In this document: piece by piece, positions 4,023 through 53,945 of the stretch
How positions within the stretch are numbered: the stretch's first letter is position 1
How the letters are laid out: every line of letters begins with the position of its first letter
NCBI RefSeq assembly: GCF_001886815.1
Contig: NZ_CP018099.1
Location: 2,850,501-2,914,500 of the forward strand
Direction: 5' to 3'
DNA length: 64,000 bases
DNA from: Caldithrix abyssi DSM 13497
Lineage (GTDB): Bacteria; Calditrichota; Calditrichia; Calditrichales; Calditrichaceae
Position numbers and translations under genes: made by a program
The notes under the pieces: model-generated
Seen by the model: the letters and a program-made list of their open reading frames with translations, nothing else
Databases searched by the model: none
What the model was told of the DNA's origin: nothing

Positions 4023-4128
4023 TTCAAAGGGGCCTGGATAATTAATTAAAAACCAGGCAATAAACTTGCGACGGCCGTAGCCTTTAGTTATATTTCAATC
4101 GTTGAGGGTAAAAATGCTGGAGGAGGTA

Positions 4129-6675
4129 ATGAAAAAATTAACCTATTTTCCAGTTTTATTAAGCCTTGCCTGCAGTCTGCTGTTTAGCCAGTCCAATTTC
4201 AGTGTTGATGCGTACAGTCAATTTCTTAACCAGAACAAGGACCTGACCTATCTAGCCTTGACGGAACGTTTCCCGTTAAAATCGACCTATTACAAATTTG
4301 CGCCCGAGCAAATCAGGCTGAACGATTTTTTGTATTTTGACTCCGTTATGGCCAGCTACCATTTAACAGAGGAAGAGATTGCCCTTTTAAAACAGAACCA
4401 TTTTGTGGTTACGGAACGCCTTACTTTTGATTGTTTTGGGGAGGCGTTGCATGATATTTACATCAACGATTTGCCCGTTTTTCTTTCTACCGATGCCGTG
4501 CTGCACGCCCTGCACGCTTCGTATTATCAAATCCTTTCAGACGTGGAACTTTCTCTGTTAAAACCCAATCTGCGTAAAATTTTAGACGGGCTATACCATT
4601 CTTTTTCGTTGCTGGCGCAAAAGTACGAGCATGATCAAGCGCTTAGCGGCGCGCTGGGCGATGTGGATATTTACGTTACCATGGCTCGCTCCCTTTTAGA
4701 CGGCCAGCAGGCGCCGTCCCAATACATTGCACAGGCGAAAATCGATACGATCTGGCAGGCCATCGCCAGTGAACAAGTAGTCAATCTCAAGCTGTTCGCC
4801 GATCGTTTTCGTTCCATCGACGGCAGCCAATTTAAGGTTCGCGGACACTACACTCGAGACGGGTTACCCGAATATTTTAAAGCCATGATGTGGCTGGGAC
4901 GCATCGATTTCTTTTTGACCCCGCCTCCGGAGAATCCCTGGGAAGCGCCCTGGAGCCGTGAAGAAATAAGACGAATGAATTTGGCGGCCTTTATGCTCGA
5001 CGAGCTGCTCGACATGGCAGGCGTCCGTCCCCTGCTAAAAGAAAACGACCAGATCATCCGTTTTCTGGTGGGCGAAAGCGATAATTTAACGCCCGCCGAA
5101 ATCAACGATCTTAAAACGGATCTGGGACTGACCGACGCCGGGCAATTACTGGATGACGACACCTACGACCTCTATCAGGAAACATTGCGAACTTCCGGAT
5201 TGGGGACGCAAAAAATCCTTTCGCAGATCATGATGATGAATCCGTTCGATCCCGAACCCGGCCGGCTGCCGCTTTCCTTCCGTTTATTAGGGCAGCGTTT
5301 CATCATCGATTCCTACATCTTTTTTAATGTGGTTTTTGATCGCATCGAGTTCCAGGGCGAAAAAGTGTGGCGCCCTTTGCCCGATCCGCTGGACGTGATG
5401 TTTGTGCTGGGCAATGACGACGCTCTTTACCTGTTAAAAGATGAGATAGAAACGTACCGATACGCTTCGCAATTGAACGCCCTGCGCTACCTGGTGGACG
5501 CCTACGATGAAAGTTTTTGGGAAGCCTCGCTTTATAACGTGTGGCTGAACGCCATTCGAACGCTTAATCCCCAACCTTCTATGGCAACCATTCCAGATTT
5601 TATGAAGACGGCCGCCTGGCGGCAAAACAAATTGAACACGCAACTGGCTTCCTGGTCGCAACTCCGCCACGATAATTTACTCTACGCCAAACAATCGTAC
5701 ACCGGCGCCGCAGGATGCTCCTATCCTTACTCGTTGATCGAGCCCAATCCCCCATTTTACGCCGCCATCCGACAGTTTGCACAAATGGCTTATGAATACT
5801 TCCGACAATTTGGAAACGATGAAAATTTTCTACTCTCTAACATTCAAAATTACTTTGCACGATTAAACGCAACAATGACGCGGCTTGAACAAATTGCACA
5901 AAAAGAACTGGCGCAGGAAACGCTTAATGCCGATGAAATTGACTGGCTGCAGCGCATGCTTTTTATCAACGCTCAAAGCGGCGCGCCGCCCTTTGACGGA
6001 TGGTACGCCTGGCTGTATTATGTGCCCGAAGATGCCAGCAAAGAGGACTACCCAATCGCCGATGTGCACACCCAACCAACAGACCAGACGGGAGAGCCTG
6101 TAGGCCATGTTTTGCACGTGGGCACGGGCAAAATCAATTTAGGCATATTCCTGGCGCCCGCCCCTTACGAAAATCACCCGCCCGTGGCCTTTGTGGGGCC
6201 GGTCATGTCCTATTACCAAACAATAACCGACAATTTTAAGAGAATGACCGATGAGGAATGGGCGGAACTGGTAAAAGCAAACAAAGTTCCGCAACGGCCA
6301 GATTGGGTCAATATCTACCTGGCGGATGCCGCAGGCAAACAGCGTCTGCCGGGCAGAGAGCTCCCCGCCAGAATCTACACGAGCCTGCAGCCGGGCAATG
6401 GCAGTGCGCCGCAAAACTTTGTACTGTATCAAAATTTTCCGAATCCGTTCAATCCACAAACCACCATTCGTTACCATATTGCAGAAAAGACGCACGTAAA
6501 ATTGACGATCTACAATCTGGCCGGCGAAAAAATTGTCACTCTGGTTGATAAACAGCAAACAGCCGGAGAGTATCGCCAAATATTCAACGGGCATAACCTG
6601 CCAAGCGGTATTTACATCGCTCGATTAAAAACGCGCAAGCAAACACAAAGCATTAAAATGGCGCTGATTCGCTAA
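4129..6675 (+). CDS. Secreted DUF3160 protein with T9SS C-terminal sorting domain
   Basis: 848-residue exported protein of unknown biochemical role. An N-terminal signal peptide (MKKLTYFPVLLSLACSLLFS) is followed by a long DUF3160-type body: the block NDLPVFLSTDAVLHALHASY near residue 120 and the late block FVGPVMSYYQTITDNFKRMT are characteristic. The last 80 residues form a type A sorting domain (YQNFPNPFNPQTTIRY, then IYNLAGEKI, LPSGIYIARL and KMALIR), so export by the type IX system and surface attachment or release are expected. The start is the ATG at 4129, because GGAGGAGG sits at 4119-4126; the frame is open upstream to a TTG at 4102. Single-gene unit on the plus strand. Confidence 0.93.
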   Translation: MKKLTYFPVLLSLACSLLFSQSNFSVDAYSQFLNQNKDLTYLALTERFPLKSTYYKFAPEQIRLNDFLYFDSVMASYHLTEEEIALLKQNHFVVTERLTFDCFGEALHDIYINDLPVFLSTDAVLHALHASYYQILSDVELSLLKPNLRKILDGLYHSFSLLAQKYEHDQALSGALGDVDIYVTMARSLLDGQQAPSQYIAQAKIDTIWQAIASEQVVNLKLFADRFRSIDGSQFKVRGHYTRDGLPEYFKAMMWLGRIDFFLTPPPENPWEAPWSREEIRRMNLAAFMLDELLDMAGVRPLLKENDQIIRFLVGESDNLTPAEINDLKTDLGLTDAGQLLDDDTYDLYQETLRTSGLGTQKILSQIMMMNPFDPEPGRLPLSFRLLGQRFIIDSYIFFNVVFDRIEFQGEKVWRPLPDPLDVMFVLGNDDALYLLKDEIETYRYASQLNALRYLVDAYDESFWEASLYNVWLNAIRTLNPQPSMATIPDFMKTAAWRQNKLNTQLASWSQLRHDNLLYAKQSYTGAAGCSYPYSLIEPNPPFYAAIRQFAQMAYEYFRQFGNDENFLLSNIQNYFARLNATMTRLEQIAQKELAQETLNADEIDWLQRMLFINAQSGAPPFDGWYAWLYYVPEDASKEDYPIADVHTQPTDQTGEPVGHVLHVGTGKINLGIFLAPAPYENHPPVAFVGPVMSYYQTITDNFKRMTDEEWAELVKANKVPQRPDWVNIYLADAAGKQRLPGRELPARIYTSLQPGNGSAPQNFVLYQNFPNPFNPQTTIRYHIAEKTHVKLTIYNLAGEKIVTLVDKQQTAGEYRQIFNGHNLPSGIYIARLKTRKQTQSIKMALIR

Positions 6676-8050: not shown

Positions 8051-8806
8051 TTAAAGCATGGCTGAAACCTGTGCCTGCGGAATGGCGCCGAAGCGTCGTT
8101 CACGCGATTTAAATTCGTCCACGGCCCGGGCCAGTTCTTCTTCTGAAAAATCGGGCCACATGACCGGCGTAAAATAGAACTCAGCGTAAGCGCATTCCCA
8201 CAGCAGAAAATCGCTCAGTCGCTGCTCGCCACCCGTACGGATCAACAAATCCACATCGGGCGCAGCGTCATCAGAGTGCATGGCCCTGGCCAGATATTGG
8301 GAGAATTTTTCACGCGTTAAATTTTGATCGTCGGCCGCCATTTGTGCGGCGCGCATTAAAACCTCGCGGGAGGAATAATCGATGGCAAGACGCAAATGTA
8401 AGTTAGTTCCGAGTTTTGTTTTCTCTTCCGCATCCTCCATCTGTTCCACCAGAGCGGAACTCAGACGATCGCGACGACCGATAAAAGAAAGCTTAACCCC
8501 ATTTTCAATACTGGTTTTTACCTCGCTGCGCAACTTATTCTGCAAAAGCTGCATCAGCATAGAAACCTCTTGCTGCGGTCTTTTCCAGTTATCAGCCGAA
8601 AATGCATACAACGTTAACGTTGCAATGCCATATTTGGGCGCGGCTTCAATAATCCGTTTTGCGGTTTCGGCGCCCTCCCGGTGCCCCCAGAAACGCGGCT
8701 TACCCCGTTGTTGGGCCCAACGGCCATTGCCATCCATGATTATGGCTACATGTAAAGAAATATCCATTTTATCATCCGGTCTGGTCAATTTCAGATGGTT
8801 GCTCAT
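8051..8806 (-). CDS. uppS: Isoprenyl transferase (undecaprenyl diphosphate synthase)
   Basis: 251-residue cis-prenyltransferase that adds isopentenyl diphosphate units in the Z configuration to farnesyl diphosphate, giving the C55 carrier for peptidoglycan and O-antigen synthesis. Signatures: IIMDGNGRWA with catalytic Asp25, FWGHREGA, TLYAFSADNWKRP, and the C-terminal IRTGGEQRLSDFLLWECAYAE block. Normal length. The start ATG is preceded by AGGAAG. The gene is solitary; cdsA, dxr or frr, often adjacent in other bacteria, are not here. Confidence 0.96.
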   Translation of the reverse strand: MSNHLKLTRPDDKMDISLHVAIIMDGNGRWAQQRGKPRFWGHREGAETAKRIIEAAPKYGIATLTLYAFSADNWKRPQQEVSMLMQLLQNKLRSEVKTSIENGVKLSFIGRRDRLSSALVEQMEDAEEKTKLGTNLHLRLAIDYSSREVLMRAAQMAADDQNLTREKFSQYLARAMHSDDAAPDVDLLIRTGGEQRLSDFLLWECAYAEFYFTPVMWPDFSEEELARAVDEFKSRERRFGAIPQAQVSAML

Positions 8807-8957
8807 AATCTTCCTGCCTGTTAATTATTTTGCCAAACATGATTGAATTAGTTAATTTTATTGCTTAGTTAGAATTAGTGTATTTAATAACATTGGTAGT
8901 TAGTGAAATTGATTGTAAGAGTCTTGAGATAATTGTGAGAAAAAAATAAGTTGTGCA

Positions 8958-11693
8958 ATGAATAATACAATTTCGGGCTTTCGTTTCGGGGAATTTGAGC
9001 TGGATCTAAAAAATCGACAGCTGAAAAAAAACAATCGTGAAATCCCTCTTAACTCCAAATATTTTGACGTCCTGGTTCTGCTGGTCGAGAATCAGCAACA
9101 ATTAACCACCAAAGAGCGCATTTTTGACACCGTCTGGAAGGACACCATTGTTACAGAATCAGCCCTCAGCCAGTGCATCAAAGATATTCGCAAGAGTCTG
9201 GGAGATAGCGCCCATCATCCCACGTACATCAAAACCATCGCCAAACATGGCTACATGTTCATTGCCGATGTTGAGCCTGTTTTAAGCGAACGATTTAGGA
9301 AGGCGGAAAAGGCCGAATCCTTCACGCGTCCCTACAAATTTCTGGACTATTTCAAGGAAGAAGATCAACATCTGTTTTTTGGCAGGGAAAAAGAGATCGA
9401 TCTGCTTTTCTCAAAAATTCTTGCCCATCGTTCTTTTATTCTTTACGGCAAATCGGGCGTGGGCAAAAGCTCGCTCATTCGCGCCGGTCTGGCGCCGGCT
9501 TTTAAAAACAGCGGCTTCCCGACTTTCGTCATCCGCAGTTTTCATGATCCGGCCGATCAACTGTTGCAATCGTTCAACAACTTAACCGGCGAAACAAACG
9601 AATCGCTGCAACAAATTGACTGGCAAACCCTGTTGACAAAGATCAAGCATCGATTAAAAAAATCCTTTATCATCTTTTTCTTTGACCAGTTTGAAGATTT
9701 TTTTCTGTTATTAAAAGAAAAAGATCGTCAGGCGCTGGTTGATGTTTTCTCCAAAATGCTAAACGATGAACAGATCAATATTCGCCTGGTGTTTGTGCTG
9801 CGCGAAGACCTGCTGGCCGAGATGAGTTACTTTAAACCGCTTCTGCCGGAAATCTTTCATCATGAATATCGTTTGCTAAAGCTGGGCAGAGAGCAGGCTG
9901 TTAAGGCCATTCTGGAGCCGGCCCGTGCAGTCGGCTGCCCTTTTGATCCAGAGCTGGCCAAACGTATTTTAAAAGACCTGGCCAACGGCGATCAACCGAT
10001 CGATCCTCCCCAACTGCAAATCGTTTGTGATGCGCTATACGATGCACGTGACGCTCAACATGGGATTACGCTGCAAAAATATGAAGCTATGGGCGGCGCG
10101 GCACAAATTCTGGAAAATTACATGACGCGCGTGCTCCATCGCTTTGACGGCGCCAAGCTGCACCTGGCCAGAGAGATACTCAAATTATTGATTAGCTTTA
10201 ACGGACAGCGCCTGGTTGTGCCCGTAGAGCAGATTGTCAGCCGTTTTGCCTCTTCCGATCATCCTGCGCAAGAAATACACGCACTGATTAATGAATTGTC
10301 AGACGCGCGCTTAATCCGCATTGGACGCCAGGAGGGCAAAAATTGGGTTGAATTGAGTCACGATTTTCTACTACCGCAAATTAAAAAGTGGATCTCAGAT
10401 GAAGAAAAGGGGTTGTATCAGGCGCGCTCCATCCTGGAACGGGGCCTGGAAGCCCACCGACACCACGGTCTTTTGCTCGACGAAGACGCCATTCAAATTG
10501 TTTTGCCTTTTGAGCGGCACTTGCGAATGACGCCTGAGGAAGCGTCTTTTCTGGCCAGAAGCTTACTATATCGCAAATATGTGCTGCCAGATTGGTTGAA
10601 AAATCAGGTCCCTGATCTGGCCAATCTTTTAATCGAATCGCTAAACGATGACGATCCCGCTGTGCGCATTGTCGCCGCCGAATCCAGCCTGCACATCCAC
10701 CATCCACAATTGGAACACGCGCTTTTTAAGCTTGCACTGTGGGATAAAGATTTGAATGTGCGCAAGACGGCCAGTATTGTTTACTTAAAAAACTACGGCC
10801 GCCAGGGGCAGAACAAGCTGGCCAGAGGGAAAAATGATAAAAAGGCGGGGTTGGTGCGGCGCGCCATCAGCCTGGCCTTTGCGCGTGATTTTGACATTCA
10901 TCTGGTGTATTTACGTAAACTCCCCCTGATGGTAATTCTTCTGGTGGTTACGGGATTGATCTGGGTGCGTCTGTATCGTAATCGAAAACAGATTTCGAAA
11001 AAAATTAGCGGTGCCACCTTTGGCGCCACCATGTCAGGGTTGCTGGTGGGCTCGTTGCTCACATTGATGCTGGCTTTGCTTAAACACCATCACTCTTTCG
11101 AAGCCATAACCTATTTACTGGTGCTCATTTCATTGGGCGGCATGGCTTCATTCTTTGCCGGGCTGGGCATCAGTAGCGGCATTGCCACCATGCGCTATGT
11201 GACCTATCGCCATAGTTTGTGGTGGATGGTGGTTGGCGGAACCCTGGGCGGCCTGTTGATCGGCGGAATGATTAACCTGATCGGCGTGGACATACTGCGC
11301 ACGCTTTTCGGACAGGAATTGATTAATATTACCGGCGCGCTGGAAGGAACCATTTTAGGTTTCTGCCTTTCTCTGGCGCTGACCATTTCTGAAATATTTT
11401 ATCCGAAGCATCGAATGGCAAAAATCCTTACCGCTGCCCTTTTTTCCACCATTGGCGCGATCACCCTTTCTCTTTTCGAAGGCAATCTCTTTAGCGGAAG
11501 CATTGCCGCCATCTCCCGTTCTTTCTCCAAATCTCAGATCAACCTCGAACCGCTTGCCTCTCTTTTGGGCGAAGTCCATTTCGGTCTTATTTCACGTCTT
11601 GTGCTCAGTTCAATTGAAGGATTTTTATTTGGCGGTTTATTTACGGCTGGAATGGAGATATTCGGCAATAAACACAAAGAAACACTGTTGTAG
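8958..11693 (+). CDS. Membrane-anchored winged-helix / nSTAND NTPase regulator
   Basis: 911-residue multidomain protein. Residues 7-105 form an OmpR/PhoB-type winged helix (GEFELDLKNRQL, then YIKTIAKHGYMFIADV), as in CadC-like one-component regulators. Residues about 135-470 are a STAND-type NTPase of the nSTAND1 kind: FFGREKEIDLL, Walker A GKSGVGKSS at 164-172, and a Walker B-like FDQFED near 242-247. Residues about 560-640 look like short HEAT-type repeats (DDDPAVRIVAAESSL and LNVRKTASIVYLKNY). From about 655 to the end there are seven or so Gly-rich hydrophobic segments, so the protein should sit in the inner membrane with its DNA-binding end in the cytoplasm. It is monocistronic, and target and signal are unknown. 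Domain calls are by motif; the combination is unusual. Confidence 0.85.
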   Translation: MNNTISGFRFGEFELDLKNRQLKKNNREIPLNSKYFDVLVLLVENQQQLTTKERIFDTVWKDTIVTESALSQCIKDIRKSLGDSAHHPTYIKTIAKHGYMFIADVEPVLSERFRKAEKAESFTRPYKFLDYFKEEDQHLFFGREKEIDLLFSKILAHRSFILYGKSGVGKSSLIRAGLAPAFKNSGFPTFVIRSFHDPADQLLQSFNNLTGETNESLQQIDWQTLLTKIKHRLKKSFIIFFFDQFEDFFLLLKEKDRQALVDVFSKMLNDEQINIRLVFVLREDLLAEMSYFKPLLPEIFHHEYRLLKLGREQAVKAILEPARAVGCPFDPELAKRILKDLANGDQPIDPPQLQIVCDALYDARDAQHGITLQKYEAMGGAAQILENYMTRVLHRFDGAKLHLAREILKLLISFNGQRLVVPVEQIVSRFASSDHPAQEIHALINELSDARLIRIGRQEGKNWVELSHDFLLPQIKKWISDEEKGLYQARSILERGLEAHRHHGLLLDEDAIQIVLPFERHLRMTPEEASFLARSLLYRKYVLPDWLKNQVPDLANLLIESLNDDDPAVRIVAAESSLHIHHPQLEHALFKLALWDKDLNVRKTASIVYLKNYGRQGQNKLARGKNDKKAGLVRRAISLAFARDFDIHLVYLRKLPLMVILLVVTGLIWVRLYRNRKQISKKISGATFGATMSGLLVGSLLTLMLALLKHHHSFEAITYLLVLISLGGMASFFAGLGISSGIATMRYVTYRHSLWWMVVGGTLGGLLIGGMINLIGVDILRTLFGQELINITGALEGTILGFCLSLALTISEIFYPKHRMAKILTAALFSTIGAITLSLFEGNLFSGSIAAISRSFSKSQINLEPLASLLGEVHFGLISRLVLSSIEGFLFGGLFTAGMEIFGNKHKETLL

Positions 11694-11745
11694 CGGTTCA
11701 TATCCGATCACGGCCTGAATTTCCGACATGGCGAGAGTGAAAAGT

Positions 11746-12063
11746 ATAAGAGTTTAGAGGTAGTTTTTGAACCTTGATTAATATGATTACAGGATTAACT
11801 TGATTTTTTTCGTTCGTGTAAGTTTGCACTCAAATTTAAGGCGAAATTTTGTTGGCACAAAAAGCAAATCATGGAAATCCCGAAATCAGGTAAATCATGG
11901 TTCAAAATTGAATGGTCGCCGGCCTGGCTCTCCTCTTCCCGCCTTTGCACGAAACTGCCCAGCGCGGGAATCTTTTACACCGTTGGAAATAATCTGCCAT
12001 GCGAAACTTCCCCCTCTCCCAGACTTTTATTCTGGGAGAGGGGGAATTAAAGGGGGTGAGGGC
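11746..12063 (+). repeat. Direct repeat, copy A (371-bp period)
   Basis: First of two tandem direct copies in the 895-bp gene-free stretch 11694-12588. It runs from ATAAGAGTTTAG to AGGGGGTGAGGGC. The right part has the inverted repeat CCCCCTCTCCCAGA ... TCTGGGAGAGGGGG around 12011-12044. The left end also occurs inverted near 3.9 kb, and the right end occurs at 38.8 kb, so this is a composite of dispersed elements. Confidence 0.9.
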
Positions 12064-12108: not shown

Positions 12109-12434
12109 ATAAGAGTTTAGAAATTATGATGTAGTTTTTGAACCTTGATTAATATGATTACAGGATTAACTTGATTCTTTTCGTTCGTGTAAAGTTACAC
12201 TCAAATTTAAGGTGAAATTTTGTTGGCACAAAAAGCAAATCATGGAAATCCAGAAATCAAGTAAATCATGGTTCAAACTTGATTGGCCGCCAGCCTGGCA
12301 CTCCTCTTCCCGCCTTTGCACGAAACTGACCAGCGCGAGAGTTCTTTACACCGTTGGAAATAATCTGCCATGCGAAACTTCCCCCTCTCCCAGACTTTTA
12401 TTCTGGGAGAGGGGGAATTAAAGGGGGTGAGGGC
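12109..12434 (+). repeat. Direct repeat, copy B (371-bp period)
   Basis: Second copy, clearly related to copy A base by base over about 320 bp with scattered substitutions and one small insertion. The same G-rich hairpin lies at its right end. Downstream (12470-12515) follows a fragment of another dispersed sequence (TTTGCGCCCTTTGTGAATTCTTTGTGCGC type) also seen near 38.95, 51.6 and 62 kb. Confidence 0.9.
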
Positions 12435-53406: not shown

Positions 53407-53945
53407 AACCGTTGAAACGGTTCCTTTTGCATTCCTGCCCGAACGATCATCCCACCGTTGAAACGGCGGGCTATTTTCAGCCATCCCTACGGGATTTTAA
53501 GTTGACGATCTACTGGTACATCCCTTCCTTGTTACGTGGGAAGAGATTTTTCACGCCGCGTTACGGATTCCCTGTGGAAAGAAGAGCGCCTTAGCAATGA
53601 ATGATTTTTCTTCTGTGTACATTGTTGTAAACCGTTGAAACGGTTTCCTTTGCATTCCTGCCCGAACGATTTTCCCACCGTTGAAACGGCGGGCTATTTT
53701 CAGCCATCCCTACGGGATTTTAAGTTGACGATCTACTGGTACATCCCTTCCTTGCAATGTGGGAAGAGATTTTTCACGCCACGTTAAGGTTTCCCTATGG
53801 AAAGAAAAACGCCTTAGCAATGAATGATTTTTCTTCTGTGTCCATTGTTGTAAACCGTTGAAACGGTTCTTTTTGCATTCCTGCCCGAACGATTTTCCCA
53901 CCGTTAAAACGGCGGGCTATTTTCAGTTATCCTTACCGGATTTTT
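53407..53945 (+). repeat. 223-bp tandem repeat, about 2.4 copies
   Basis: Units start with AACCGTTGAAACGGTT at 53407, 53630 and 53853, exactly 223 bp apart; the third is partial. Each unit has two palindromic CCGTTGAAACGG-type sites about 45 bp apart, then CGGGCTATTTTCAGCCATCC, CCTACGGGATTTTAAGTTG and a 3' part ending CTTCTGTGT(A/C)CATTGTTGT. Open frames within it are frame artefacts. Gene-free sequence continues to 54116. Confidence 0.95.

Follow-up and report, generated by a model that had tools for sequence, protein, structure and literature searches.

CadC and ToxR carry a single membrane helix and a sensor in the periplasm, AfsR is soluble, and MalT, a transcription activator of Escherichia coli, is soluble with a C-terminal LuxR-type helix-turn-helix (HTH). 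To our knowledge, the STAND transcription switches described so far (MalT and AfsR) are not membrane proteins, and CadC and ToxR carry no NTPase. MalT shows that bacteria use STAND proteins to switch transcription (PMC10427625), and AfsR binds 11-bp repeats through an OmpR-type domain that is controlled by its STAND part, with ATP binding releasing autoinhibition (PMC10936776). The CreB site, TTCAC-N6-TTCAC, is also made of 11-bp direct repeats as for OmpR-type domains (PMC3660660). Fouling of the undecaprenyl carriers raises CreD more than 30-fold (PMC12152626), and colicin M raises it strongly (PMC3599342). In Bacillus subtilis, SigM responds to the undecaprenyl phosphate level, and the authors of that work anticipate comparable pathways elsewhere among bacteria (PMC11081497). 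Here we looked at a window of 64,000 nt from the genome of Caldithrix abyssi DSM 13497 (contig NZ_CP018099.1, positions 2,850,501 to 2,914,500), in which a gene for a 911-residue protein with a winged helix, an nSTAND1 NTPase, HEAT-like helices and a polytopic membrane domain (hereafter the STAND gene) diverges from a second cis-prenyltransferase gene, uppS2. On balance this protein is probably a one-component inner-membrane transcription regulator, gated by its STAND ATPase, of its own gene and of uppS2.

The open reading frame (ORF) of the STAND gene starts with ATG and holds 911 codons for residues with no internal stops. A preliminary description, made from the sequence alone, had read the protein as an OmpR-type DNA-binding domain, a STAND-type NTPase with the Walker A motif GKSGVGKSS, HEAT-like repeats and a Gly-rich polytopic C-terminus, and this was confirmed, the HEAT-like repeats as an all-helical HEAT-like segment. 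The N-terminal winged helix was matched by Pfam Trans_reg_C at residues 27-101 (60.9 bits, cut-off 26.2); its closest PDB sequences were CadC, ToxR and OmpR, and Foldseek matches at TMt 0.74-0.88 placed it nearest to ToxR by fold (up to 0.88; CadC 0.82) and nearest to CadC by sequence. About 20 residues further on, nSTAND1 (PF20703) covered residues 125-492 with 201 bits (E=6e-59, cut-off 27.1; 364 of 379 positions), and the fold of this part matched Orc1/Cdc6 AAA+ proteins and the SIR2-STAND protein EfAvs5. The Walker A motif (residues 164-172) reads GRSG[VA]GKSS in most homologues and keeps GxSGxGKSS in all of them, the Walker B-type DQFE (243-246) is invariant across them, and the set G[KR]SG[VA]GKSS, DQFE, RED and HD is invariant or nearly so; NTP binding, hydrolysis and switch-like self-association are predicted for this part. 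HEAT_2 at residues 557-636 scored 25.0 bits, slightly under its cut-off of 27.7; the segment matched designed alphaRep proteins in the PDB by profile (E down to 2.8e-23), and residues 530-610 were modelled as helices with pLDDT of about 90-95. In the C. abyssi genome, a 4.98-Mb single contig, this was the only nSTAND1 protein above the family cut-off, and membership of a larger paralogue set was therefore rejected. Just downstream of the gene lie two 300-nt direct repeats (window 11740-12039 and 12111-12410), which are 92% identical, 371 bp apart and each hold the C/G-rich palindrome cccctctcccagacttttattctgggagaggggg.

Residues 645-900 are strongly hydrophobic and Gly-rich with seven hydrophobic segments in the hydropathy profile, and were modelled as long helices without a large periplasmic domain (pLDDT 75, pTM 0.73 for the membrane-domain model), so that this part is not predicted to be soluble and the protein would reside in the membrane. 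Its mean column identity in the homologue alignment was 65% versus 61% for the whole protein, and TM4-5 resembled TM6-7 in a repeat-like manner (hhalign E=1.2e-5, one comparison). Pfam gave no family above the cut-off for this domain, and with sub-threshold noise only, its assignment to a known transporter or Pfam family was rejected. The seven membrane helices proposed earlier stood as hydrophobic segments of a polytopic domain, but the number of spans is probably six plus one. The stretch after segment 1 carries 4.8 Lys/Arg on average, loops 3-4 and 5-6 and the C-terminus are also net positive, which agrees with the positive-inside rule when segment 1 is taken as non-spanning; a relative on sphingomonad plasmids (Swit_5304, locus L120) is without segment 1 and has six segments. 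For these two reasons, six spanning helices with both ends inside and one extra non-spanning hydrophobic segment are the more likely topology.

The survey of this architecture and of the genes adjacent to its homologues covered 40 Calditrichota genomes, that of C. abyssi included, and 82 genomes of a second, KSB1-type phylum. The gene was present in 9 of the 40 Calditrichota genomes, full-length in eight of the nine, the N-terminus of the L013 homologue being lost in a scaffold gap. Homologues at 41-76% identity were thus carried by eight Calditrichota genomes besides C. abyssi and by five KSB1-type genomes (L030 first, and four more found from it), which brings the total to 14 genomes in two phyla with one copy each, and uppS2 was linked in all of them. 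A cross-phylum contig scan with one peptide pattern missed KSB1-type members with GGNLFS that were found otherwise, and is thus not a measure of spread beyond the two phyla. At the level of sequence, the comparison confirms the architecture as a real conserved unit and not a chance fusion. Other nSTAND proteins with long and very regular HEAT-like arrays were seen in these KSB1-type genomes (L081 4169-7084, L082 1-2763 and L084 3169-5466), that of L082 adjoining a SIR2-like gene, and in a close relative the STAND homologue has a gene for an MjaI-type restriction endonuclease (L021 4476-5117) on its downstream side.

In all 14 loci uppS2 stands on the divergent side of the STAND gene, and in 11 of them the two genes are direct neighbours. 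In the other three it lies farther out in the same divergent direction (0.9 kb in G121, 2.0 kb in G119 and 5.4 kb in G120), with small membrane proteins, a DUF4153-like protein or others encoded in between. Among the 40 Calditrichota genomes, the STAND gene occurred in nine and UppS2 in ten, with an overlap of nine. The UppS2 proteins group together in a clade of their own, separate from the housekeeping UppS that these genomes encode (support 100/100). Ten alignment columns distinguish the two clades, and near the active site UppS2 has S-D-F for S-N-F and W-E-C for W-Q-x. The catalytic D, N and R residues of the family, as aligned with E. coli UppS, are invariant in 17 of 17 UppS2 rows. Most genomes also hold a housekeeping UppS; G006, G013 and G036 show no UppS-family gene other than uppS2, as would be expected if UppS2 can do the housekeeping work, though draft gaps could explain it.

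Just 5' of the STAND gene, the pattern TGAG-N7-TGAG was found in 14 of 14 loci, always on the STAND coding strand and with an exact 11-bp period, and 10 loci carry three in-phase copies. In C. abyssi the second half-site ends 18 bp before the start codon, and in most loci the repeat lies 3-25 bp before it irrespective of the distance to uppS2. Dinucleotide shuffles gave 0.07 expected hits summed over the loci, to be read with genus-level sequences not being independent, so that about eight lineages remain, and with one locus (L015) uncounted in the strict test, where runs of N hide the start codon and the chosen ORF start cuts the site, which is present. The 11-bp period is the direct-repeat geometry (about 10-11 bp) expected of OmpR/PhoB-type winged helices, and we infer that the repeat is this protein's operator. 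It was rejected as a ribosome-binding site, as its distance to the start varies and copies stand 11 bp apart over up to three units, and as coding sequence, as three does not divide the period and the site precedes the start codon. Some loci show the form GTGAG-N6-GTGAG, which the reverse complement of the CreB site, GTGAA-N6-GTGAA, resembles, as a resemblance only. A pattern search of the C. abyssi genome gave one other strict match, and because it lies inside a coding region no distant regulon is visible; a wide regulon was rejected and the regulator looks local.

None of the three UppS2 loci that have no STAND gene (L080, L104 and L105) carries the repeat. In L104 and L105, both KSB1-type, a four-helix membrane gene and an HTH_34 winged-helix gene directly precede uppS2 in an apparent operon; L080 has only the four-helix gene before uppS2, and the Aureimonas plasmid pAU20b has the same HTH_34-uppS2 order as an operon. 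The simplest reading of these loci would be a regulator swap at a conserved target, uppS2. The sphingomonad L120 protein, 382 residues long and annotated 'transcriptional regulator, CadC', matches the C. abyssi protein at 45% over 119 residues in the winged helix and at 31% over 177 residues (716-891) in the membrane core, and has neither NTPase nor HEAT segment. No uppS was annotated within about 8 kb on either side of it, and its upstream region holds the TGAG repeats TGAGCGTCATGAGAAGCATATGAGG with 9- and 11-bp steps as in KSB1-type loci. The repeat appears to travel with the winged helix, and so does the membrane core, even without the STAND part. Since L120 keeps winged helix and core without the NTPase, the core may be the input module and the NTPase an inserted gate.

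The membrane-tethered, NTP-gated transcription switch of the preliminary description gained support because of the conserved 11-bp site, the conserved divergence from uppS2 and the L120 protein, whereas its gating and membrane residence stay predicted. We propose that the C-terminal six-helix core anchors the protein in the inner membrane; among the domains, it is also the best candidate for receiving the input. The nSTAND1/HEAT part would lie in the cytoplasm. Like other STAND proteins, it would be autoinhibited at rest and, once switched, would bind ATP and self-associate, upon which the N-terminal OmpR-type winged helices would bind side by side on the tandem TGAG repeats. The likely targets are the protein's own gene and the divergent uppS2 for a second undecaprenyl-pyrophosphate synthase; in loci that also contain creD or further membrane genes, these would be controlled along with them. 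The evidence at hand is of sequence: the architecture, its conservation, the uppS2 linkage, the repeat, and the intact motifs of the NTPase and of UppS2; ATP gating and uppS2 as a target are what it suggests. We can only guess at the signal, which might be envelope stress or a lipid carrier that has run short or been sequestered. A narrower version, in which an undescribed six-helix domain would sense the polyprenyl carrier (or its flux) directly and make the protein a one-protein homeostat setting transcription of a second undecaprenyl pyrophosphate (UPP) synthase, appears rather unlikely.

Several points weigh against a STAND-gated regulator of uppS2. Conserved adjacency alone does not prove regulation, no consistent uppS2 promoter could be placed (a minus-strand -10-like TACAAT after the repeat in the window was too weak and was not used), and the repeat stays close to the STAND start codon also in intergenic regions as long as 250-600 bp, because of which autoregulation is better supported than control of uppS2. 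The full-length structure model, at pTM 0.45, is uninformative on domain packing, and the membrane domain had no PDB sequence match and its model no PDB fold match at E<0.001. The link to the envelope comes from other lineages, with creD next after uppS2 in four of the 14 loci (G037-G040) and no creD found in the C. abyssi genome; creD as a universal partner was rejected on both counts. On the Aureimonas plasmid uppS2 is followed by a gene of the linalool dehydratase/isomerase (Ldi) family, so that UppS2 might make a different isoprenoid.

This last point leads to the alternative that survives best, which keeps the regulatory reading but has UppS2 make a specialised isoprenoid in place of the lipid carrier of the wall, and the regulator sense that product or its membrane effect; it overlaps the preferred reading and differs in product and signal. 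The separate UppS2 clade, its own residues near the active site, the Ldi-family neighbour and PRK14839 as the best NCBIfam model speak for it, but all known catalytic residues are kept, the three genomes with UppS2 as sole copy point the other way unless draft gaps explain them, and the creD neighbours point to the envelope, which leaves it possible and still doubtful. A regulator purely of its own gene, or of distant genes, with uppS2 linked otherwise, for example through a shared polyprenyl-lipid pathway, would account for the repeat keeping close to the STAND start codon whatever the distance to uppS2, and for the KSB1-type locus in which that distance is 5.4 kb. The sole other strict repeat match lying within a coding region stands against distant genes, and two STAND-less loci carry another DNA-binding regulator beside uppS2; we regard this explanation as unlikely. 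An anti-phage or surveillance STAND protein (Avs-like), with the membrane domain as effector and the winged helix regulating expression or sensing DNA, would agree with nSTAND domains being common in conflict systems (PMC8195603, PMC10907252) and with the EfAvs5 fold match, but is very improbable and was rejected as a defence system, with no PADLOC model match, an operator-like repeat that points to transcription and, unlike fast-evolving, mobile defence genes, one copy per genome, similar rates of conservation in all regions and a synteny with a biosynthetic gene that stays fixed in both phyla.

Table 1. Features of the STAND-uppS2 locus in the window and of other uppS2 loci
Feature	Position	Strand	Basis
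wHTH-nSTAND1-HEAT-membrane regulator gene	8958..11693	+	911-aa ORF; domains; 13 homologues with the same architecture
OmpR/CadC-type winged helix, residues 1-110	8958..9287	+	Pfam Trans_reg_C; CadC/ToxR/OmpR by sequence and fold
nSTAND1 NTPase and its C-terminal winged-helix part, residues 125-492	9330..10433	+	Pfam; motifs; Foldseek
All-helical HEAT-like segment, residues 493-640	10434..10877	+	sub-cut-off HEAT_2; alphaRep profile matches; modelled helices
Membrane domain, residues ~645-905: hydrophobic segment 1 (655-673) and predicted six-helix core	10890..11672	+	hydropathy
Putative operator TTGAGATAATTGTGAGAAAAAA, two TGAG half-sites 11 bp apart	8924..8945	+	same site in 14/14 genomes
uppS2, divergent cis-prenyltransferase of a separate UppS clade	8051..8806	-	PF01255 262 bits; own clade; catalytic residues kept
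Four-helix membrane protein, HTH_34 regulator, uppS2	L104 507-2318; L105 7797-9607		KSB1-type, without STAND gene
HTH_34 regulator, uppS2, Ldi-family gene	L123 5548-8612		Aureimonas plasmid pAU20b

Elsewhere in the window, a DUF3160 protein with a C-terminal type IX secretion sorting domain is encoded at 4102-6675 (+), and two Acido-Lenti-1 RNA matches of 51.1 bits each lie about 220 bp apart at 53451-53496 and 53674-53719 (+).

The protein joins a STAND switch and a membrane one-component regulator, and has a predicted operator as well as a likely target. Little is settled about the sensing and rationing of undecaprenyl phosphate in bacteria, and the protein is a concrete candidate for doing this in another way. 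The membrane core, which the NTPase-less regulator of sphingomonad plasmids also has, looks like a new sensor module.

Among described systems, AfsR, a Streptomyces SARP with a NOD/NB-ARC-type STAND domain and TPRs, likewise binds two 11-bp direct repeats (PMC10936776). An OmpR-type domain joined to a STAND NTPase already occurs in AfsR; it is the polytopic membrane domain that sets the C. abyssi protein apart. AfsR has a BTA domain and TPRs and is without a membrane domain, whereas the C. abyssi protein has an nSTAND1 NTPase, HEAT-like helices and a polytopic membrane domain, and no Pfam match to the BTA domain, the mark of SARP/AfsR proteins, after its winged helix. MalT is also a bacterial STAND transcription switch, but soluble with a C-terminal LuxR-type HTH. 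With CadC and ToxR the protein shares the N-terminal winged helix, which is nearest to theirs, and the predicted membrane residence; in place of their one helix and periplasmic sensor it has a predicted six-helix core with the NTPase in between, and with this polytopic C-terminus and no large periplasmic domain it may work like a CadC/ToxR protein without being a member of that group. Swit_5304 has the same winged helix and membrane core and likewise TGAG repeats upstream, and is without the NTPase, the HEAT segment and segment 1. SigM of B. subtilis with its membrane anti-sigma complex and CreBC-CreD of Gram-negative bacteria, which are unrelated proteins, give membrane-linked responses to a short or fouled undecaprenyl carrier or to wall damage (PMC11081497, PMC12152626, PMC3599342); in contrast to these, a single protein would combine all the steps here, if the signal we guess is right.
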